Under the pieces are notes generated by a model that was not told the origin of the DNA, searched no databases, and saw nothing but the letters and a program-made list of their open reading frames with translations. A DNA stretch of 33,188 nucleotides. Source: an uncultured Ruminococcus sp. GTDB taxonomy: Bacteria > Bacillota > Clostridia > Oscillospirales > Acutalibacteraceae. The stretch lies in NCBI GenBank assembly GCA_944412525.1, contig CALYBM010000017.1, forward strand, positions 1 to 33,188, read 5' to 3'. This document shows positions 17,668-29,252 of this stretch, piece after piece (position 1 is the stretch's first letter; every line of letters begins with the position of its first letter). The position numbers and the translations under genes were made by a program.

Positions 17668-20328
17668 TTACGGCTTTTGAGTTGACGGAGCGACTACTGC
17701 GGCAATGCCCCAGAAAAGTGAGTAAAGCAAAACTTCAAGCGTTCCCATTACTCCGACGCCTGCATACAAAGCAAGCGTTGCCGCAACTAAAATACCGAGA
17801 ATAATTGCCATAAGCTGAATAAGTATGGAAAGTGAGATATTCTGCTTTATTCTTACGCTGCCGGATACGGCACGGGCAAGAGATGAAGTTTTGCCTCCTG
17901 TTATGAGGTAGGCTCTTGATTTTTCTTCGACTACACTTTGGGTCTCTTTCAGAGTGTTTCCAAGTCCTGTAGGAAGTACCTTTATGCTTCTGTAGAACAG
18001 TGTGTAAAGTTCGGCAATGAGGTCGTTTGTAATGTTGTAGTCTGTTGTTCTTATAAGAAAACTTATGCCGTTTGCTTCGGCACGGTGAAGCTCTGTTTTT
18101 AACTCTTGGTCAGCGTGGTATCTTGTTACCACCATTGCGACAAGTCTGCCGGCTCTTGACAGATAAGTTACCTGCTTTCCGTTTGATGTGTATTTTTCCT
18201 CGTATTCAATACTCGGAGTTTCAACATTGTATTTTTCAAGCAGCTTGCGTGAACCGACAAGTATTCTTTCGCTGTTAATCCATCCTACAAGTCCCATTTC
18301 GTCCTCGTAAAGCACGCTTTCCACTTCCGGCAGGGTTCCGTTTGTTTCAGCCACAACAGATTCAAATGCGTTTGCGATAGGATTTTGAGCTTCTTTTAAA
18401 ATGGCTATTCCGCACAGCAGGGATTCGTCTACATTGTATTCTTCATAGGTCTTTATACCGTCAAGCTGAATTGAATCCGCAGGGAACAGCTCGTTTGCGT
18501 CAATCATAATTGCGGTACTGTCGCAAAATTGCCTGATTGACGGATATCCCGACAGCATGGCACCGAACGAAAGGAGCTTTTTGCAAAGAATTCTGACAGG
18601 CAGATTTACCGAAACAAGAGTTGCAACGGGAATCGCAACCGCCGTCATAAGTGCAAAGGCGTTAACGGCGTCGGTAAACGACACCTTAACGATACCGTAG
18701 ATAATTGTAATTATGACTGCGGCAATTGTTGTAATCGGAGCAAGCTTTGATGCAAGGTCCTCACTCGGATCGGGCGCATATGATATTTTAAGAAAATTTG
18801 ACGGAAATTTAGTTTTGTGCTGATAAGCAATGATAGTTTTGTCAGACGCCGTTCCGCTTAGCATTTGATTTGCAACAGATTCGTTGTTATAGATTTTTGC
18901 GGCGTACTTTTGACCTTTTGACGAAATAAATTTAAAGTTATCCTTAACTCTCAGCACCATAATCAGCTTTCCAAAATTGTTAACAAAGAAAGCAAGCAAA
19001 ACGATTACACAGTAATAGTTTATGTTAAAGGAATTTAAGTCACCGATACAGAAGAAAGAAACTATTGTTTGTATCATTGCGGCGACCGAGCCTACCGCAA
19101 CGGCGGTGTCGGAATTTCCCTTAAATCTTACAAGCGGAGTGAGACCGCTCAGTACTGCGATTCTGTTTATAAACAGAGAAAAACCGACTAATATAAAGTT
19201 TAAAATAGCGTATGCGGCCGGTGCAAAAGAAACTGCGAAGCAAATTGCTTCGGGGAAAAGGCGTGTCACAACAGTCAAAACTATTGATAATGCCGCAATT
19301 ATACCTGAGATAAGACTGCGGATAAAAAGCTTTTTAATGTTGTGATTAAGCTCATACATAATGCTTTTTTCATCGTCATCTCCCGTGTAATCCTCAACGG
19401 GCTTTGTCTTTTCTTTGGGAGTGTCGTTGTCGTCCGACTCGTCCTTTGAGAAAAAACCGACAATGGCCGAAAGTACTTTTTCCTTAGCAGAACGCTTGTC
19501 CTTGTTTTCCTCCTGCTCCTGCTCATCCTCAACTTTTGGTTCGGGACGGATAACATGGGCTATTACCGACGGGTTTTTTGAACGGATATATTCATCGTAT
19601 TCATGTGCAACAACATCGGTAAATTTACCTGCTTTGACATTTATAATTTCTCTCGGTTCATCGAGACGGTATATCGGAACTTTTGCCACAATTTTCTTGG
19701 GTGAGCTTTTGGGAGGTTCCTCCTCATTATCATCGTTTTTTACACCGAAAAGCTGTTCGTATTTGCCTTTTTCAGTTTCTTTTTTTGAGCTTTGTTCTTT
19801 TGTGCCTTGATTTTCATTACTGCCGAGCTCAATATCAATGCTGTCAATACTTTCGATTTGGCTTGCATCATCCCTAAACTGCTCCACTTCGCCGATTACT
19901 TCTGCCGAAAAGCTCGTATTTTCATCGTATTCGGGGGAGAGAGAAATAATTTTATTTTCTTCGGCCTCAGCTTTTGCCTTTTCTTCCTGCTCTTGTTTTA
20001 AAGCCTTTTTTTCAGCGTCGGCTAATGCCTGCTCGGGAGTTTTTACCTCTCCGGTGTTTCCGTCCATCATAAGGGACGCCTGCATTGTTGCGGCTGTCTT
20101 TTCGCCTACAATAGTGTTTGATGTATCAATATCATCAAGCGGACTTTCGTTTTTCAGCCTTGGCTTTTTGTTTGCGTTGCTGAAAATATCGTCCATTTTG
20201 GGCTTCGCACGATATTTTTGCGCGGTTTTTTCCATTTTCTCCTGGTCAGCAAGATAGTGTGTTTCTTCAAGTATGCTTTCTATTTCCTGTTCATAAAGTG
20301 AATCATAGTTATTATCTCGTTGTGACAA
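17668..20328 (-). CDS. Degenerate P-type (P1B-like) ATPase, predicted pseudo-enzyme, with long acidic N-terminal region
   Basis: The 886-residue product has an acidic, charged N-terminal region (about 1-330), then eight predicted membrane helices spaced as in P1B pumps (near 335, 365, 410, 440, 530, 555, 832 and 860). A 250-residue cytoplasmic loop lies between helices six and seven. Remnants are recognisable: NPIANAFESV for the HP motif, GLVGWINSERILVGSRKLL for the nucleotide domain, and SVRIKQNISLSILIQL before the last helices. The catalytic motifs are gone: DKTGT is DANELF (Asp about 610), the membrane CPC is IPV, GDGxND and A-domain TGE are absent, and the TGD site reads RTTD. The start is TTG 20328 with AAAGGAG well spaced; GTG 20337 abuts the ribosome site. 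Confidence 0.85.
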   Translation of the reverse strand: MSQRDNNYDSLYEQEIESILEETHYLADQEKMEKTAQKYRAKPKMDDIFSNANKKPRLKNESPLDDIDTSNTIVGEKTAATMQASLMMDGNTGEVKTPEQALADAEKKALKQEQEEKAKAEAEENKIISLSPEYDENTSFSAEVIGEVEQFRDDASQIESIDSIDIELGSNENQGTKEQSSKKETEKGKYEQLFGVKNDDNEEEPPKSSPKKIVAKVPIYRLDEPREIINVKAGKFTDVVAHEYDEYIRSKNPSVIAHVIRPEPKVEDEQEQEENKDKRSAKEKVLSAIVGFFSKDESDDNDTPKEKTKPVEDYTGDDDEKSIMYELNHNIKKLFIRSLISGIIAALSIVLTVVTRLFPEAICFAVSFAPAAYAILNFILVGFSLFINRIAVLSGLTPLVRFKGNSDTAVAVGSVAAMIQTIVSFFCIGDLNSFNINYYCVIVLLAFFVNNFGKLIMVLRVKDNFKFISSKGQKYAAKIYNNESVANQMLSGTASDKTIIAYQHKTKFPSNFLKISYAPDPSEDLASKLAPITTIAAVIITIIYGIVKVSFTDAVNAFALMTAVAIPVATLVSVNLPVRILCKKLLSFGAMLSGYPSIRQFCDSTAIMIDANELFPADSIQLDGIKTYEEYNVDESLLCGIAILKEAQNPIANAFESVVAETNGTLPEVESVLYEDEMGLVGWINSERILVGSRKLLEKYNVETPSIEYEEKYTSNGKQVTYLSRAGRLVAMVVTRYHADQELKTELHRAEANGISFLIRTTDYNITNDLIAELYTLFYRSIKVLPTGLGNTLKETQSVVEEKSRAYLITGGKTSSLARAVSGSVRIKQNISLSILIQLMAIILGILVAATLALYAGVGVMGTLEVLLYSLFWGIAAVVAPSTQKP

Positions 20329-20389
20329 GGGTAACACTCCTTTCGTGTTTTGCAGGCTTTTCAGTATGACTTTGGCTTGTCCGCAAACA

Positions 20390-21139
20390 TTACCTTTTGT
20401 TCATAGCACTGTACATAAGTATCCCTGCGGCAACAGATGCGTTGAGGGAATTAATTTTACCTTTCATGGGAAGAGATACAATCACATCGCATTTTTCTCT
20501 TACAAGCCGTGAAATTCCCTTTCCCTCGTTGCCGATTACAATGGCACAAGCTCCCGAAAAATCGCATTTTGTGTAGTCGGTTCCGTCCATGTCCGCCCCG
20601 TAAACCCATACATTGCGTTCTTTCAGTTCGTCTATAAGATTTGCAATATTTGTTACCCGCGCAACCCTCATATATTCAACGGCACCCGCCGACGCCTTGC
20701 CCACGGTGTAGCTAAGGCTTGCACTGCGTCGTTTCGGAACAATTACGCCGTGAACTCCTGCACATTCCGCGGTGCGGATTATTGCACCGAGATTGTGAGG
20801 ATCCTCGATTTCGTCGAGAACAATAATAAACGGCAACTCGTTTCTGCTTTGTGCATATTCAAAGATATCTTCTACCGATGAATATTCTTTTACGGCGGCA
20901 AATGCAATTATACCCTGATGGTTTGTATTGCCTGCAATGTAGTCAAGCTTTGTTCTGTCAACCTCTTTAACGGGAATTTGTTTTTGCTTTGCCTTTGCAA
21001 TAATTCCCACAACGGCACCGTTTTTTTCGCCTCTCGCAACGAGAATTTTGTCTATGGCTCTGCTGCTCCTGACCGCTTCGCTTACGGGATTTCTGCCTGA
21101 AATAATATCTGATTTTAATTCATTGTTTTTTTCAGTCAT
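20390..21139 (-). CDS. rlmB: TrmH/SpoU-family RNA 2'-O-methyltransferase, RlmB-like
   Basis: This SPOUT enzyme is predicted to methylate the ribose of G2251 in 23S rRNA, or a related target. The 249-residue protein has an N-terminal L30e-like substrate-binding domain (SGRNPVSEAVRSSRAIDKILVA) and the three SpoU motifs: DPHNLGAIIRTAECAG, VIGNEGKGISRLV and LPMKGKINSLNASVAAGI. The start is ATG 21139 with TGAGGT upstream; the longer TTG frame at 21151 overlaps this ribosome site. It is first in a likely operon with the degenerate P-type ATPase (50-base gap). RlmB-like proteins are hard to separate from tRNA-modifying relatives by sequence alone. Confidence 0.92.
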   Translation of the reverse strand: MTEKNNELKSDIISGRNPVSEAVRSSRAIDKILVARGEKNGAVVGIIAKAKQKQIPVKEVDRTKLDYIAGNTNHQGIIAFAAVKEYSSVEDIFEYAQSRNELPFIIVLDEIEDPHNLGAIIRTAECAGVHGVIVPKRRSASLSYTVGKASAGAVEYMRVARVTNIANLIDELKERNVWVYGADMDGTDYTKCDFSGACAIVIGNEGKGISRLVREKCDVIVSLPMKGKINSLNASVAAGILMYSAMNKR

Positions 21140-21181
21140 TTTGTACCTCAAAATAAATGATAATTAAATATATACTGACAT

Positions 21182-21231: not shown

Positions 21232-21813
21232 CTAAACATAATAAAGAGTGTCAAGAATTATTGCTCCCGTGTCGAGATTTTTCGGAATTATTCCGTAAAG
21301 TCCCGTCAATCTGTCTTCAAAAATACATATGTGCGGAGGAAACGGTGTAAAACTGAAGAAAAACGCCGCAAACAGCATAAGCATAAAAAATGCGGGATAA
21401 AACAAATCTTCAAGTTTGCGGTTTGAATACATCAGTCTGTAGGATAAAAACAATGATGTGCAAATGCAGAATATTGCACATATAAAGCACAGGATAAATT
21501 CATCATCAAGGTTAAGCAAACTCAATACAAGAGAAATTAAAATATATGACACACCGAGATAGTACAGAGATATTACCTTAACGGCCGCAAAGCGTTTAAG
21601 CGGAAGGTGAAGACTTAAAAGCTCAAGAAATCCCCAAAGAGCATAAGGCAAAAGCATGGTCTTTAAAATTTCCCAAATGCTGTCGTTTACCGAGCCGAAA
21701 ATCACTCCTATTGCTTCTCTGTTGCAGAGAAGATAAAGGTTTTGCATAAATACGGAAAGGATAATGATGAAAAATATTCCGCCTATTTCGAGTTTCATAA
21801 GTGTTTTTTTCAT
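21232..21813 (-). CDS. DUF6512-like integral membrane protein
   Basis: This 193-residue protein has about six predicted membrane segments and no enzyme motif that I recognise. The N-terminus KLEIGGIFFIIIL followed by IGVIFGSVNDSIWEILKTMLLPYALWGFLEL fits what I recall of the DUF6512 family (the SVNxSxWEhlK pattern), whose function is unknown. The ribosome site GAGGTGG is ideally placed. It stands alone: 319 bases of AT-rich DNA separate it from spmB upstream, and rlmB downstream has its own promoter. Confidence 0.78.
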   Translation of the reverse strand: MKKTLMKLEIGGIFFIIILSVFMQNLYLLCNREAIGVIFGSVNDSIWEILKTMLLPYALWGFLELLSLHLPLKRFAAVKVISLYYLGVSYILISLVLSLLNLDDEFILCFICAIFCICTSLFLSYRLMYSNRKLEDLFYPAFFMLMLFAAFFFSFTPFPPHICIFEDRLTGLYGIIPKNLDTGAIILDTLYYV

Positions 21814-22132: not shown

Positions 22133-22648
22133 TTAACTTGTTCCGAAATAAAGCCTTACGGTAATCACGCTCATTACAGCGGCAGTCATATCAGCTAAAA
22201 TTGCCGCAAAAAGCGTATGTCTGATTTTTTTTACTCTTATGCACCCGAAATACATAGCTATTGCATAAAATGTGGTTTCACTTGAGCCTGCAAGAACAGA
22301 AGCGACTCTTCCTGCAAAGCTGTCGGGACCGCTTGTTTCAAACAGCGATGTCAAAAGTGCCGTTGAGCCGCTTCCCGAAACAGGTCTTAAAAGAACCATG
22401 GGGACTATTTCGGGAGGGAATCCCAAAAAATCGGCGGCAGGCTCAATAAAGCTGCAAAGTACATCTATGGCACCGCTCGACCGCAGTAGATCAACAGCAA
22501 ACACAAGTCCTATAATTGTGGGAGCGATTGAATACAGTATTTGCATTCCTTCCTTTGCGCCCTTTAAAAACACATCAAAAACAGCTACTTTTTTTATCAA
22601 GCCAAACACAATTATGATGCAGGCGAAAACAGGCATAATTAATTCCAT
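22133..22648 (-). CDS. spmB: Spore maturation protein B
   Basis: SpmB is a polytopic membrane protein which, with SpmA, is needed for normal dehydration of the spore core in Bacillus. The 171-residue length fits. Both Spm proteins have nucleoside-transporter-like gate domains. The conserved VLLRPVSGSGSTALLTSLFE and GPDSFAGRVASVLAGSSETTFYAIAMYFG segments are typical of SpmB. Its ATG is three bases after the spmA stop, so the pair is translationally coupled. In Bacillus the operon is under sigma-E; no clear sporulation promoter is visible here. Confidence 0.94.
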   Translation of the reverse strand: MELIMPVFACIIIVFGLIKKVAVFDVFLKGAKEGMQILYSIAPTIIGLVFAVDLLRSSGAIDVLCSFIEPAADFLGFPPEIVPMVLLRPVSGSGSTALLTSLFETSGPDSFAGRVASVLAGSSETTFYAIAMYFGCIRVKKIRHTLFAAILADMTAAVMSVITVRLYFGTS

Positions 22649-22651
22649 GAC

Positions 22652-23239
22652 TTAACACTCATTCCTTTTTGATGAATTGAGGGTACAGGCACATATAAGA
22701 GCCACTGCAAGTGCGGTCGCGGAGGATATCCACACAGGGACGATAATTTCAAAGGGAGCCTGACTTGAGTAGGCAAGTCTTAGGGAGGCGAGTGTCGTAG
22801 GCAAAAGCTGAAGAGATGCCGTATTCAGTACAACAAATATTATCATCTCGTTGCTTGCCGTGTCCCGCCTGTCGTTAAGAGTATGTAACTGCTCCATGGC
22901 TTTCAGACCGAAAGGTGTAGCCGCATTACCGAGACCGAGCAAATTTGCACTTATGTTCATTGAAATGCTTTGAAAAGCGTCGCTGTTTTTGTCAAGCCTC
23001 GGAAACAACGGTCGTATAATCGGAGAAAAAATTTTTGCAAACACAGATGTCAGACCGCTTTCGACAGCAATCTTCATAATTCCCGACCAAAGACAAATTA
23101 TTCCTGCCATTGTAATAATTAATTGAATGGACGATGCACCGCTGTCCATAAGTGCCTTCGACAAAGTTTCTGTATTTCCGAGAAAAATCGAGCAAAAAAT
23201 ACTAATTATTACAAGTCCGCTCCAGATATAATTTAGCAT
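22652..23239 (-). CDS. spmA: Spore maturation protein A
   Basis: SpmA is the partner of SpmB in spore core dehydration. The 195-residue membrane protein has MLNYIWSGLVIISI at its start, the gate segment GIICLWSGIMKIAVESG, and the highly typical NISANLLGLGNAATPFGLKAM. ATG 23239 is preceded by AAGGAGATTTT. The longer frame reaching 23266 would start inside the region upstream of this ribosome site and is rejected. The pair shows that the host is, or recently was, a spore former. It is divergent from the AbrB-like gene, with a palindrome in the shared upstream region. Confidence 0.95.
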   Translation of the reverse strand: MLNYIWSGLVIISIFCSIFLGNTETLSKALMDSGASSIQLIITMAGIICLWSGIMKIAVESGLTSVFAKIFSPIIRPLFPRLDKNSDAFQSISMNISANLLGLGNAATPFGLKAMEQLHTLNDRRDTASNEMIIFVVLNTASLQLLPTTLASLRLAYSSQAPFEIIVPVWISSATALAVALICACTLNSSKRNEC

Positions 23240-23284
23240 AAAATCTCCTTTTTTGACAAATATCACTTTAAATCATTGGAATGT

Positions 23285-24872: not shown

Positions 24873-25715
24873 ATGAGCATTAGGAAATACGCCGTAATAG
24901 GACATCCGATAGGACACACGATGTCGCCGTTTATTCATAAAAGACTTTTTGAGCTTGCGAAAATTAACGCTGAATACGCAACGCTTGATATTTCTCCCGA
25001 AATGCTGGCAAAAGAGTATGAGAGAGTGCTTTCAAAGCTTGACGGATACAATATAACAATTCCCCACAAGCAGAACATTATACCGCTGATTGATGAAATT
25101 GACGACAAAGCAAAAATGTACGGAAGCGTCAACACAGTATCAAATACAAACGGAATTGCAAAGGGATATACTACAGATCCCGACGGTTTTTTGAAGGCAT
25201 TGGAAGCGTCCGATATTCCGATTTGCGGAAGAGTTGTAATTCTCGGCTGCGGCGGCGTCGCAAGAACAATGGCATATGAAGTCGTTTTAAAGGGTATGCC
25301 CCTGCTTTTCGCCGTAAGAAAAGAGGATGAAAATATTGCGAAGCTTTTATGTTCCGAAATTATGAATACAGTCAAGGGCTCTAAAGTAAGCTGTTGTCTT
25401 ATAGACGAATTGTCGGGCGATATAGACCTGCTTGTAAACGCAACCCCTATAGGAATGTTCCCAAAAACCGACGCCCAGCCTATTAAGGATTCCGTTATTA
25501 ACAAATGTGCAAGCGTATTTGACGCAGTTTACAATCCGCTTGAAACCGTGCTTATAAAGAAATCGCTTGCAAACGGAGCAAAAGCGGTGGGCGGAATGTC
25601 GATGCTTGTGTGGCAGGCGGTTGTCGCTCACGAAAAGTGGGACGGTTCGATTTATGACAAAGACGATATTGCAAAGCTTTGCGTTGATTCGGCAGAGGAG
25701 CTAAAGAACAGATAG
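24873..25715 (+). CDS. aroE: Shikimate dehydrogenase (NADP)
   Basis: AroE reduces 3-dehydroshikimate to shikimate. The 280-residue protein has the substrate site GHPIGHTMSPFIHKRLF, catalytic Lys66 (NITIPHK) and Asp102 (TTDPDGF), the nucleotide loop GCGGVARTMAYE, and NATPIGMFP. It ends in GGMSMLVWQAVVAHEKW, the normal C-terminal substrate helix. The ribosome site GGAGGTAAGG is strong. It is the first gene of the aromatic cluster; aroK follows after 14 bases. No T-box or other long leader structure is visible upstream. Confidence 0.97.
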   Translation: MSIRKYAVIGHPIGHTMSPFIHKRLFELAKINAEYATLDISPEMLAKEYERVLSKLDGYNITIPHKQNIIPLIDEIDDKAKMYGSVNTVSNTNGIAKGYTTDPDGFLKALEASDIPICGRVVILGCGGVARTMAYEVVLKGMPLLFAVRKEDENIAKLLCSEIMNTVKGSKVSCCLIDELSGDIDLLVNATPIGMFPKTDAQPIKDSVINKCASVFDAVYNPLETVLIKKSLANGAKAVGGMSMLVWQAVVAHEKWDGSIYDKDDIAKLCVDSAEELKNR

Positions 25716-25729
25716 CAGGTGTTTAGTTA

Positions 25730-26242
25730 ATGGATAATATAGTGCTGTGCGGATTTATGGGCTGCGGCAAATCCACCGTAGGTAAAAATTTGGCACGCAA
25801 GACGGGTAAAAAATTTATTGATATGGATTCATACATCGAAAAAAAAGCAGGTATGACCGTGACTGAAATTTTTGATAAATTCGGCGAAAAGGGTTTCAGA
25901 GAAATGGAATATGAAGCTTGTAAAGAGCTTTCTGAAATGAAAGGTCTTATAATTGCTTCGGGAGGCGGAGCATTTACATTCAAGCGTAATGTCGATGCGT
26001 TTAAGGGCAGAGATATTATTGTTCTCCTCGATGTACCGATTAAAACAATAAAGTACAGACTGCGAAATGACAAGTCAAGACCGCTTCTTCAAAAGCCTGA
26101 CAAAGACAAGGTTATGCAGGAACTGTACGAGCGTCGGCTGCCGGTCTATAGGGAAGCGGCGGATGTTGTTGTAAGCGGAAAAAACACACCTCTCGGCACG
26201 GCTTTTTCCGTAATTGACGCTGTAAGCACGCTTAAAAAATAA
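25730..26242 (+). CDS. aroK: Shikimate kinase
   Basis: AroK phosphorylates shikimate at the 3-hydroxyl with ATP. The 170-residue protein has the P-loop GFMGCGKST at 8-16, the shikimate-binding DMDSYIEKKAGMTVTEIF (Asp of the DxD pair), FREMEYE, SGGGAF and the lid-region RPLL. It follows aroE after 14 bases. The gap of 78 bases after aroK carries a promoter for the rest of the cluster. Confidence 0.96.
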   Translation: MDNIVLCGFMGCGKSTVGKNLARKTGKKFIDMDSYIEKKAGMTVTEIFDKFGEKGFREMEYEACKELSEMKGLIIASGGGAFTFKRNVDAFKGRDIIVLLDVPIKTIKYRLRNDKSRPLLQKPDKDKVMQELYERRLPVYREAADVVVSGKNTPLGTAFSVIDAVSTLKK

Positions 26243-26250
26243 ATTACCTA

Positions 26251-26279
26251 TTGATTATAACGCTTTAAAGTGGTAAAAT
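26251..26279 (+). promoter_or_regulatory. Internal sigma-A promoter before aroF
   Basis: TTGATT (26251-26256), an exact 17-base spacer and TAAAAT (26274-26279) are present, 41 bases before the aroF ATG and just after the aroK stop. It could drive aroF-tyrA-aroB-aroA-aroC-pheA separately from aroE-aroK. Confidence 0.6.
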
Positions 26280-26320
26280 ATATTGGAGAAATTTAATTTA
26301 TGTGAAAGGATGTATTATAA

Positions 26321-27334
26321 ATGATTATAGTATTAAAGCCCTCCGCATCAAGTGAGCAGATTACTAAATTTACGGAAATGCTTAAAGATACATACGATGT
26401 AAAGGTAAATAAATGGGACGGCGTTCAGTCAACCGTTCTCGGTCTGATCGGAGATACAACTAAAATTGATATTGAATATATTGACGCACAGGATATCGTA
26501 GAAAGCGTCAAAAGAGTTCAGGAACCGTACAAAAAGGCAAACAGAAAATTTCATCCCGATAATACGGTTATAAGAATAAACGATGATGTTGCGATAGGTG
26601 ACGGAAGCCTGCAAATTATGGCAGGTCCCTGTTCCGTTGAGAGCGAAAGCCAGATTGTGCAGATTGCAAAGGATGTAAAAAAATCGGGTGCAACATTCCT
26701 CAGGGGAGGAGCGTTTAAGCCCCGTACATCTCCCTATGCTTTCCAGGGATTAAAGGCTGAGGGACTTGATCTCTTAAAGATTGCAAGAAAAGAAACAGGA
26801 CTTCCCATTGTAACCGAGATTATGCGTGCTTCTCACATTGATATGTTTGAAAATGTAGACATAATTCAGGTCGGCGCGAGAAATATGCAGAATTTTGAGC
26901 TTTTAAAAGAGCTTGGAAAAATCGACAAGCCCATTTTGCTCAAACGCGGACTTGCTGCCACCATAGAGGAATGGCTTATGAGTGCCGAATATATTATGGC
27001 GGGGGGAAATGACAAGGTAATTCTTTGCGAGCGTGGTATTCGTACATACGAAACCTTTACGAGAAACACACTTGATATATCTGCAATACCGATTGTAAAG
27101 ACCCTTTCACACCTGCCCGTAATAGTAGATCCGAGTCACGCCGCAGGAAAGTCGTGGCTTGTAGAGCCGCTTGCAATGGCAGCGGTTGCGGCGGGAGCCG
27201 ACGGACTTATTATTGAGGTTCACAACGACCCGCCTCACGCTCTGTCAGACGGTGCACAGTCGCTTACGCCTGAACAGTTTGACAAGGTTGCAAAAAAGGT
27301 ATTTGCACTAAAGAATGCGTTAAATGAAGTTTAA
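26321..27334 (+). CDS. aroF: 3-deoxy-7-phosphoheptulonate (DAHP) synthase with N-terminal ferredoxin-like regulatory domain
   Basis: This enzyme condenses PEP and erythrose-4-P, the entry step of the aromatic pathway. The 337-residue protein is the type I-beta form. Residues 1-70 form the ferredoxin-like domain (MIIVLKPSASSEQITKFTEML) that mediates Phe/Tyr feedback in the Thermotoga enzyme. Then comes the KDO8P-synthase-like barrel with AGPCSVES, LRGGAFKPRTSPYAFQG, VGARNMQNFELLKELG, LKRGLAATIEEWL, DPSHAAGKSW and EVHNDPPHALSDG. Feedback control by Tyr or Phe is inferred from the domain. An internal promoter precedes it. Confidence 0.96.
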   Translation: MIIVLKPSASSEQITKFTEMLKDTYDVKVNKWDGVQSTVLGLIGDTTKIDIEYIDAQDIVESVKRVQEPYKKANRKFHPDNTVIRINDDVAIGDGSLQIMAGPCSVESESQIVQIAKDVKKSGATFLRGGAFKPRTSPYAFQGLKAEGLDLLKIARKETGLPIVTEIMRASHIDMFENVDIIQVGARNMQNFELLKELGKIDKPILLKRGLAATIEEWLMSAEYIMAGGNDKVILCERGIRTYETFTRNTLDISAIPIVKTLSHLPVIVDPSHAAGKSWLVEPLAMAAVAAGADGLIIEVHNDPPHALSDGAQSLTPEQFDKVAKKVFALKNALNEV

Positions 27335-27355
27335 TTTTCATCGGAGGAAATCCCA

Positions 27356-28186
27356 ATGAACATAGCCGTAGTAGGACTCGGAATAATCGGAGGAAGCTTT
27401 TGCAAGGCGATAAAAAAATATACCGATCACTATGTAATCGGCATAAACCGTACTGCCAAAACAGCACAAAAAGCGTTGGATATAGGTGCGATTGATGAAA
27501 TCGGAAACCACGAAAGTCTTAAAAAGGCCGATCTGGTTATACTTACTATGTATCCTCAGGCTGATGTTGAGTATATTCAAAAGTACGGGGATTGCATCAA
27601 AAAAGGTGCTGTCGTAACCGATGCCTGCGGTATTAAGCGCGCGATTTGTCCTGTGCTTGAGCGGCTTTCAAAAGAATACGGATTTGTTTTTGTCGGAAGT
27701 CATCCTATGGCAGGCAAAGAAAAAAACGGATTCGATGTTTCGGATTCAGAGCTTTATCAGGGGGCAAGCTTTATAATTACTCCGTGCTCTGCCGAGCAAA
27801 AATATGTTGATTTACTCTCGGATTTTGCGGTATCAATAGGGTTTGGAACGATAAAAATAACTACACCCGAAGAACATGACCGAATGATTGCGTTTACTTC
27901 GCAGCTTCCCCATGTCCTTGCGTGTGCCTATGTTTTAAGTCCCTGCTGCCCAAATCACAAAGGATTTTCTGCGGGCAGTTACCGTGATGTTTCGAGGGTT
28001 GCAAATATTAATTCAAGTTTATGGAGTGAGCTTTTTCTTGAAAACAAAGAGCCGCTCGTAAAAGAGCTTGATATTCTTGTAGAAAATATAGGCAAGATTG
28101 TTGATGCCGTCAAGAAAGAGGACAGGGAAAAACTTACTGAGTTGCTTGAAGAGGGGCACAGGGTAAAGGAATCTCTCGGAGAATGA
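27356..28186 (+). CDS. tyrA: Prephenate dehydrogenase
   Basis: TyrA converts prephenate to 4-hydroxyphenylpyruvate with NAD, the tyrosine branch. The 276-residue protein has the Rossmann loop GLGIIGGSFCKAI (residues 7-19), GSHPMAGKEKNGFD with catalytic His, and the substrate region FTSQLPHVLACAYV. SAGSYRDVSRVANINSSLWSELF is the conserved C-terminal helix segment. It has no ACT domain and no fused chorismate mutase, so tyrosine feedback may rest on aroF and other points. It sits 21 bases after aroF. Preference for prephenate over arogenate cannot be settled by eye. Confidence 0.95.
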   Translation: MNIAVVGLGIIGGSFCKAIKKYTDHYVIGINRTAKTAQKALDIGAIDEIGNHESLKKADLVILTMYPQADVEYIQKYGDCIKKGAVVTDACGIKRAICPVLERLSKEYGFVFVGSHPMAGKEKNGFDVSDSELYQGASFIITPCSAEQKYVDLLSDFAVSIGFGTIKITTPEEHDRMIAFTSQLPHVLACAYVLSPCCPNHKGFSAGSYRDVSRVANINSSLWSELFLENKEPLVKELDILVENIGKIVDAVKKEDREKLTELLEEGHRVKESLGE

Positions 28187-28202
28187 CGAAAGGAATTATC
28201 TT

Positions 28203-29252
28203 ATGAGAACAGTTCATGTGGGTACGGGTAAGCCATACGATATTTTTATTGAAAGAGGAATAATCGACAGTTGCGGCGAGTACATAAAAAAACTGTCCAA
28301 GGCTGAAAAAGTCACTGTAATAACGGACTCAAATGTTGCACCTTACTACCAGTGGCGTGTGCTTAATTCACTCGGAAAAGCAGGCTTTGAGACCAAGACA
28401 CATATTTTCAAAGCGGGCGAGGAATCAAAAAATCTTGACAGTATTGCTCGTATGTATGATACCCTTGCAGGCTTTAAAATGACAAGGAAAGATGTTATCC
28501 TTGCACTCGGCGGAGGTGTCGCAGGTGATATGGCAGGCTTTGCTGCGGCGACATACCTTAGAGGAATTGACTTTATTCAGGTTCCCACATCTCTTCTTGC
28601 ACAGGTTGATTCGTCGGTAGGCGGCAAGACAGGCGTTGATTTGTCCTACGGTAAAAATCTTGTGGGAGCGTTTCATCAGCCTATTGCCGTTTTGATTGAC
28701 CCCGATACACTCAGTACATTGCCCGACGACTATATTTGCGACGGAATGGCAGAGGTAATAAAATACGGATGCATAAAGGATGCGGATTTTTTCCAAAAGC
28801 TTGCAGAGTCAAACGCTTTTGACCATATTGAGGATGTAATAGAAAAGTGTGTCACGATAAAGCGTGATGTTGTAAGCCGTGATGAGCGCGAAGCGGGCGA
28901 AAGGATGCTGCTTAATTTCGGACACACACTCGGTCATGCTATCGAAAAGATTTATGACTTTAAGGGAATATCTCACGGAATGGCGGTTGCAATCGGAATG
29001 GTGCTTATTTCAAGAGCAGGTGAAAAGGCGGGCATTACAAAACAGGGCACAGCCGATAAGATAGCTGACCTTTGCCTTAAATACAGTCTGCCGACAACCG
29101 ACAGTGCAAGCTTTGAGCAAATGGCTGAGGCGGCGTCCGGTGATAAAAAAACATCAGGAAACAGTATTAATCTTGTTTTGCTCAAAGAAATCGGAAACAG
29201 TGTTATAGTAAATAAAAAGCTTGATGAGTTAGAAAGCTTTATTACTGCCTAA
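28203..29252 (+). CDS. aroB: 3-dehydroquinate synthase
   Basis: AroB cyclises DAHP to 3-dehydroquinate using NAD and a divalent metal. The 349-residue protein has the NAD loop GGGVAGDMAGFAAATYLRG, the catalytic PTSLLAQVDSSVGGKTGVD, the metal ligands in GMAEVIKYG and LLNFGHTLGHAIE, and a final His in KGISHGMAVAIGM. The ribosome site AAAGGAATTATC lies just upstream. The gene follows tyrA after 16 bases and precedes aroA by 12. Confidence 0.97.
   Translation: MRTVHVGTGKPYDIFIERGIIDSCGEYIKKLSKAEKVTVITDSNVAPYYQWRVLNSLGKAGFETKTHIFKAGEESKNLDSIARMYDTLAGFKMTRKDVILALGGGVAGDMAGFAAATYLRGIDFIQVPTSLLAQVDSSVGGKTGVDLSYGKNLVGAFHQPIAVLIDPDTLSTLPDDYICDGMAEVIKYGCIKDADFFQKLAESNAFDHIEDVIEKCVTIKRDVVSRDEREAGERMLLNFGHTLGHAIEKIYDFKGISHGMAVAIGMVLISRAGEKAGITKQGTADKIADLCLKYSLPTTDSASFEQMAEAASGDKKTSGNSINLVLLKEIGNSVIVNKKLDELESFITA

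Follow-up and report, generated by a model that had tools for sequence, protein, structure and literature searches.

The window analysed here, a stretch of 33,188 nucleotides (nt) from an uncultured Ruminococcus sp. (contig CALYBM010000017.1 of assembly GCA_944412525.1, positions 1 to 33,188), carries on its reverse strand the gene of a large membrane protein that an earlier note on this DNA had described as a pseudo-ATPase of P1B architecture (Table 1). In our reading, to which we give a probability of about 0.55, the protein descends from a CopA-like P1B ATPase, is ancient and catalytically dead, and has been kept across a whole bacterial order, behind rlmB, as a membrane scaffold or regulator. 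The protein probably does not pump, and a role as scaffold, sensor or regulator may be proposed for it.

The window protein is homologous to P1B (CopA-type) ATPases over its whole core. The window sequence by itself matched the NCBIfam models TIGR01525 (E=1.2e-11) and CopA (E=8.4e-12) over residues 527-802 (residues are numbered throughout by the 889-amino-acid count from a GTG start), with scores well short of the curated thresholds (44.1 of 1316 bits and 44.2 of 346.25 bits, respectively), and the copper pump 3rfu was matched at E=9.3e-08. When a profile of 25 family members from across the order was used, PDB 3rfu was matched at E=3e-36 (hmmsearch), and the alignment of the family profile with 24 genuine pumps by hhalign reached a probability of 100 and E=3.9e-42 over 553 columns, collinear from transmembrane helix (TM) 1 to TM8; the resemblance to P1B pumps exceeds chance. 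The CopA model of NCBIfam matched 17 of the 25 members at E<=0.01, and Pfam at this threshold gave one match across the 25 (Extensin_1, in one member) and none named P-type. No HMA domain was detected in the Pfam scans of the window and the 25 members, and no GMxCxxC in 123 loci. As no match rises above a curated cut-off, the protein does not seem to belong to a described Pfam or NCBIfam family.

The architecture was examined with AlphaFold2 (AF2), run on 42 aligned sequences (the window and relatives). The model has a mean predicted local distance difference test score (pLDDT) of 71.1 and a predicted template modelling score of 0.59, and most ten-residue blocks from residue 321 on reach a pLDDT of 78-93. 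It contains eight TM helices, a shortened A-domain loop at about 473-523 and a P/N loop at about 590-815; TM6 is broken at 568-572, the site of the kept CPC proline, and a strand of the P/N region (609-613) ends at D613. Hydropathy gave seven segments, the last of which (830-887) is long enough for two helices. These predictions agree with the architecture proposed in the earlier note, namely the eight-helix order of P1B pumps with the A domain after TM4 and P/N after TM6, a shrunken A-domain loop, a large P/N loop and two last helices, and the predicted structure, by keeping the P1B helix order and the P/N domains, speaks in part against a fold unrelated to P-type ATPases.

The catalytic motifs of the pumps are lost in the family. 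A scan of species genomes gave 43 loci, to which whole-genome searches added more. The retention of DKTGT and GDGxND in close homologues, which the earlier note held to be incompatible with its reading, was not observed: both motifs are absent in 87 of the 89 ORFs (open reading frames) matching the window protein (87 loci), and the two matches bearing them (L074 and L081) are separate genuine pumps, so that no close homologue with restored motifs was found. The losses are common to orthologues, among them loci representing 22 other families within the order. For a census by position, 31 DKTGT-bearing ORFs were set aside beforehand as pumps and 123 loci were kept, corresponding to 104 distinct proteins; four with <=400 model positions were dropped and the remaining 100 are the basis of the counts given below. 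None of them has K, G or T at positions 2, 4 and 5 of DKTGT, the histidine of HP (SEHP, in the N domain) or the Asp of the pumps' VAD motif. In the CPx motif of M4, the proline (P570) is kept in 92 members, the first Cys in 2 and the second Cys in at most 1. In the alignment with pumps, the window has DANEL at DKTGT, AQNP at SEHP, TTD at TGD and IPV at CPC, and in the profile-profile alignment the TGES-bearing and GDGxND-bearing stretches fall in gaps of the pseudo-pump. Both the ORF strings and the profile alignment bear out the replacements listed before (DKTGT by DANELF, CPC by IPV, TGD by RTTD, with TGE and GDGxND missing). A TGES string occurs in four members (L009, L011, L016 and L020), at residues 655-673, that is in the N-domain region. 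The window's D613 aligns with the phosphorylated Asp of the pumps, and Asp is found at 613 in 56 members, one residue later in 25 and at neither position in 19. Judged from sequence by DKTGT, GDGxND, TGES, HP and CPx, the family would not be one of functional P1B-type ATPases.

In place of the catalytic signature, the members share another one, [DE]-x-[FY]-P619, G682, G695, Y740, D766-x-N768 and W876, with G695 conserved in 100 members, G682 in 99, D766 in 97, W876 in 96, Y740 in 95, P619 in 94 and N768 in 93; G398 is further conserved in 92, as is P570. At 616, 93 members have D or E; the next residue is L, I, V or F in 100, the one after it is F or Y in 97, and P619 follows. Y740 occupies the position of an Asp that is invariant in 24 pumps. 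This new signature fits a retained, re-purposed surface and not decay.

The family is nearly universal in the window's order, presumably GTDB Oscillospirales. Among order genomes of at least 90% completeness, the family profile matched 290 of 297 at E<=1e-42, representing 143 of 145 genera, with a single match in each matching genome except G340 and G491. In this survey and in those of the class and the phylum, the first four or five candidates of each genome were scored, and a few members were possibly missed; rescoring ten genomes with all candidates recovered one diverged copy (G563), leaving six order genomes without a match after full rescoring (G299, G325, G346, G357, G380 and G478). Among these, rlmB lies close to the end of a contig in G299, no rlmB was found in G325 and G380, which belong to one genus (g211), and G346, G357 and G478 have just paralogue-level rlmB matches (E 1e-14 to 1e-18; the weakest linked rlmB, from a different search, had E 1.5e-26). 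Since a clear rlmB is lacking in five of the six and a contig end is met in G299, missing contigs, assembly or joint loss may explain these absences. The family is carried by 34 of the 36 genomes of the window's genus, and the window's own genome holds a DKTGT-bearing P1B pump (L080) as well. In the class survey, all 12 genomes of the same order matched strongly over most of the profile; for the 231 class genomes outside the order, the best match had E=2.3e-37 and none was full-length among the matches listed, the leading ones covering about positions 196-480, as true pumps do. In the phylum survey, all four genomes of the same order matched at E<=1e-40, versus none of the 295 others. A FastTree tree built from 25 family members together with 29 pumps places the pumps in one group, which a single long branch joins to the family (support 0.875). 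A direct test of family monophyly returned False, the root of the rerooted tree having fallen inside the family, so the separation of the family from the pumps rests on the pumps forming one group; such a group on a long branch fits a single origin. The family probably arose once, in the ancestor of the order.

Purifying selection on the gene is strong. By the Nei-Gojobori method against 11 close relatives, the approximate whole-gene ratio of nonsynonymous to synonymous substitution rates (dN/dS), proposed as a check by the earlier note, was 0.057-0.100 in the nine comparisons with finite dS, the other two being saturated. In the P/N domain dN was 0.032-0.158, comparable in size to that of rlmB (0.045-0.207), and in 10 of 11 comparisons it fell below the value for the TM/A part. 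The arm that precedes the core evolves faster. The intact frame, the dN/dS values and the order-wide retention are in agreement with the claim of a frame that is maintained and not decaying, and they rule out a local decay or a pseudogene in the window, given that 290 of the 297 order genomes match. With the motif loss shared by orthologues and the purifying selection taken together, the protein would count as a pseudoenzyme.

The N-terminal arm of the window protein has 325 residues, with 78 D+E versus 48 K+R, in line with the acidic region of roughly 330 residues announced by the earlier note. Its pLDDT is below 50 over most of its length and 68-80 in the blocks covering 11-40, where a helix is modelled at residues 10-42, and it contains the short motifs EIESILEETHY and MDDIFSNA. 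Among 91 untruncated members the arm length goes from 1 (L052, with a split frame) or 13 (L061) to 487, with a median of 314; its acidity is not universal, 80 of the 89 arms of at least 60 residues being net negative. With a loose pattern, composed after inspecting the sequences and applied to the first 140 residues, a SLDDILAEF-type motif was found near the start of 13 of the 22 members from other families, compared with a mean of 0.87 and a maximum of 4 in 500 shuffles. A strict version, searched as a DNA pattern in eight genomes, gave 16 matches versus one for the reversed control pattern; six of the 16 lie in pseudo-ATPases, seven at residues 71-501 of other ORFs, and three (L168, L171 and L175) were not placed in an ORF. 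The idea of a docking peptide shared with other proteins was thus given up: among these eight genomes no other ORF has the strict motif near its start, with 3 of the 16 matches unplaced, and there is no sign of a common docking peptide. A second short motif, VIDQNLF, is common to the arms of L060 and L063, otherwise dissimilar members. In two relatives from the window's family (G457:C113 and G250:C11), the open frames surrounding the match run to 1488 and 1459 amino acids, which would allow far longer arms than in the window.

We propose that the eight-helix core would hold the former P/N domains to the membrane, where they would form a rigid platform for binding whose residues could be G682 and G695 in the N domain and Y740, D766 and N768 surrounding the old active site, and that the flexible acidic arm, with its short helical motifs in many members, would tether or dock a putative cytoplasmic partner. 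It is this combination of an anchored platform and a tethering arm that leads us to propose a membrane scaffold or regulator, which might act in a growth-related process with a logic like that of other pseudoenzymes. A bolder version, which we regard as rather improbable, would make the protein a near-universal and possibly essential, order-defining membrane hub, in which the dead phosphorylation site and the disordered acidic arm recruit and regulate a cytoplasmic machine, with a possible link to ribosome maturation via rlmB.

Several observations weigh against a dead pump kept as a scaffold or regulator. The window's genus weighs heavily in the census, and the whole-gene dS exceeds 1 in all comparisons, making the dN/dS values approximate. 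In Pfam, the window had no P-type match at E<=1, the only match being DUF7039 (0.053, under the cut-off). The persistence of D613 or a neighbouring Asp in 81 members makes an altered chemistry possible, and that of the N-domain glycines G682 and G695 makes nucleotide binding possible. Some members are almost armless (13 residues in L061), so the family can do without the arm. The linkage to rlmB may be simple vertical inheritance. The two g211 species (G325 and G380) have no pseudo-ATPase and no rlmB, G380 also having no SpoIVA match, which could be a joint loss; in the window's own genus, G021 and G030 (91% and 86% complete) gave no family match and paralogue-level rlmB only. Finally, the frame is broken in two members: the copy of L052 (G057:C38, 4164-6560) is split by one in-frame TGA, and that of L062 (G046:C45, 6221-8448) consists of two overlapping ORFs, which may reflect sequencing error, decay or recoding; in both cases the pieces were kept separate.

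The main rival to a scaffold or regulator is a ligand sensor, in which the N domain would bind nucleotide (or Mg2+ at the kept carboxylates) without hydrolysis and the bound state would be relayed via the membrane part or the arm. It holds this place because two glycines of the N domain persist (G682 and G695, together with D766) despite the loss of other residues, and the N-domain strands are modelled, in blocks with a pLDDT mostly near 90. In P1B N domains, however, the HP histidine and the first GxG glycine contact ATP, and in the family this histidine is absent from all 100 members and the first GxG glycine is found in just 18, so that we regard nucleotide sensing as doubtful. Altered catalysis and channel function are less likely still. 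An enzyme or pump that is still active thanks to migrated catalytic residues, for example a [D]x[DE] at the place of DKTGT acting as an HAD phosphatase-like motif, would account for the Asp at 613 or 614 in 81 members and for the D or E at 616 in 93, and migrated catalytic residues are documented among pseudoenzymes generally in a review (PMC10211241). Yet the place of this Asp differs by one residue from family to family, 19 members lack it, the Lys of PxxK is replaced (by L in 56 members, K not being among the nine commonest residues listed) and GDGxND is deleted; with the last two changes no complete set of HAD motifs is left, by the generally accepted rules for these motifs, and this reading seems unlikely.

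A passive or gated channel or transporter, using the TM bundle without ATP, fits the predicted retention of the eight-helix order and the conserved residues of the membrane part (the CPC proline and G398 in 92 members each, N408 in 78, D410 in 73 and W876 in 96), but the CPC cysteines are nearly gone, the window has IQ where the pumps have their C-terminal YN, and in all comparisons but one the cytoplasmic P/N domain shows a lower dN than the TM/A part, which leaves this possibility hardly better than slight. Least probable of all is a membrane protein specific to sporulation, at which the earlier note had hinted. It is suggested by spmA/spmB-like Gate-domain genes lying in the window and in some relatives just upstream of a DUF6512 gene and rlmB, and by a SpoIVA match in 281 of the 297 order genomes. 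The spm linkage is nevertheless confined to part of the window's genus, and the pseudo-pump is retained by 15 of the 16 order genomes in which SpoIVA had no match, four of the five g199 species sampled being among them; as far as this one, imperfect marker goes, the hint is weakened and a strictly sporulation-specific role is unlikely.

The gene itself starts in one of two ways: counted from the first GTG, the ORF (17668-20337, minus strand) encodes 889 amino acids, and from the TTG at 20328 it encodes 886. The TTG is the better start because AAAGGAG lies 8 nt upstream of it but directly abuts the GTG, and because one relative (L005) has TTG as its sole start option; the gene end at 20328 given by the earlier note is therefore preferred. 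The strings it had quoted (DANELF, IPV, RTTD, NPIANAF and VGWINSERILVGS) are all found in this ORF, and the neighbours are those it had named, rlmB upstream and rpe, a ribulose-phosphate 3-epimerase gene by Pfam, downstream.

Table 1. Features of the pseudo-pump gene and its upstream neighbour in the window.
Feature	Position	Strand	Basis and remarks
Putative pseudo-P1B ATPase gene, whole	17668..20328	-	TTG start, 886 amino acids; 889 if GTG at 20337
Acidic, mostly disordered N-terminal arm, residues 4-325	19363..20328	-	Composition and AF2 model
Predicted TM1-TM4, about residues 326-464; FKGNSD replaces PNMD of the pumps	18946..19362	-	Alignment, hydropathy, AF2
Shrunken A-domain remnant, about residues 474-523; TGES-bearing stretch deleted	18769..18918	-	Profile alignment, AF2
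Predicted TM5-TM6, about residues 525-590; P570 of CPC kept, Cys replaced by I and V	18568..18765	-	Census, AF2
Pseudo P/N domain, about residues 591-815; GDGxND stretch deleted, new signature	17893..18567	-	Profile alignment, census, AF2
Predicted TM7-TM8, about residues 816-889; W876 near-invariant	17671..17892	-	Census, AF2
rlmB-like rRNA 2'-O-methyltransferase gene (SpoU methylase and substrate-binding domain)	20390..21151	-	Pfam; conserved immediate upstream neighbour

RlmB is the sole neighbour found to be conserved across families. In 110 of the 123 loci, which are not independent since several repeat one place, its gene immediately precedes that of the pseudo-pump on the same strand, and the gap between the two is 0 to 59 nt in 83 of these 110. 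Ten of the 13 exceptions have <=387 bases of upstream sequence to inspect; two others (L072 and L140) are one place in G036, with no rlmB found upstream, and the last is the split L052, where rlmB lies upstream of the first piece. Taking the 22 loci that represent 22 other families (L052-L073), 20 have rlmB directly upstream. The downstream genes are variable, with rpe in the genus and an EF-G-like GTPase gene in 5 of the 22 other-family loci; others are presumably lon-like, mutS2-like and more, all these names, EF-G-like included, being given by sequence appearance. Further upstream in the window, a DUF6512-type protein (21232-21813, minus strand, E=1.5e-08) belongs to a cluster found in 53 compared loci, mostly just upstream of rlmB. 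Beyond it, two adjacent genes (22136-22648 and 22655-23266, both on the minus strand) encode Gate-domain (PF07670) proteins of 171 and 204 amino acids, which we take to be SpmB and SpmA; the Gate-domain gene clusters (c5 and c6) comprise 14 loci each, all in part of the window's genus. An ordinary stretch at 24873-29252 (plus strand) carries genes of the shikimate pathway, with domains of the shikimate dehydrogenase type and of shikimate kinase, DAHP synthase and 3-dehydroquinate synthase.

P-type ATPases are known from textbooks as pumps, and the literature and family libraries searched yielded no bacterial pseudo-version. A literature search for inactive, degenerate or pseudo P-type ATPases found no bacterial case among the papers listed, subscription papers lying mostly outside this search, so an earlier description is possible. 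Relative to these sources, the present family would be a new pseudoenzyme family of P-type ATPases, notable for its near-universality in the order. An order-wide pseudo-pump in bacteria of the gut and rumen would be a clearly selected gene that defines its lineage; it would be a candidate marker for the phylogeny of the order and would offer a test case of how a transporter fold turns into a scaffold.

Compared with the CopA-type P1B-1 ATPases (PRK10671/TIGR01525; 3rfu), the family likewise has eight TM helices, the position of the A domain and the P and N domains, and it keeps the CPC proline, the second GxG glycine, the N-domain glycine and the D of TGD. Unlike these pumps, it is devoid of HMA, DKTGT, TGES, HP and GDGxND, has nearly always lost the CPC cysteines and has an A domain reduced to about 50-65 residues; most members carry a long acidic arm, and the family is retained across the order. 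A P-type ATPase with a pump-independent role has reportedly been described in C. elegans, CATP-1, which is said to be of the eukaryotic Na/K type and to keep its catalytic residues; in both cases a protein of P-type architecture is proposed to act without pumping, whereas the catalytic residues, reportedly kept in CATP-1, are lost in the family. Pseudokinases and the iRhom pseudoproteases are familiar examples of pseudoenzymes. The terms 'P-type' and 'ATPase' are absent from the main text of the pseudoenzyme review cited above (PMC10211241), which describes pseudoenzymes in general as having a conserved fold, lost catalytic motifs, and scaffolding or allosteric roles; the window family likewise keeps its fold and has lost its catalytic motifs.

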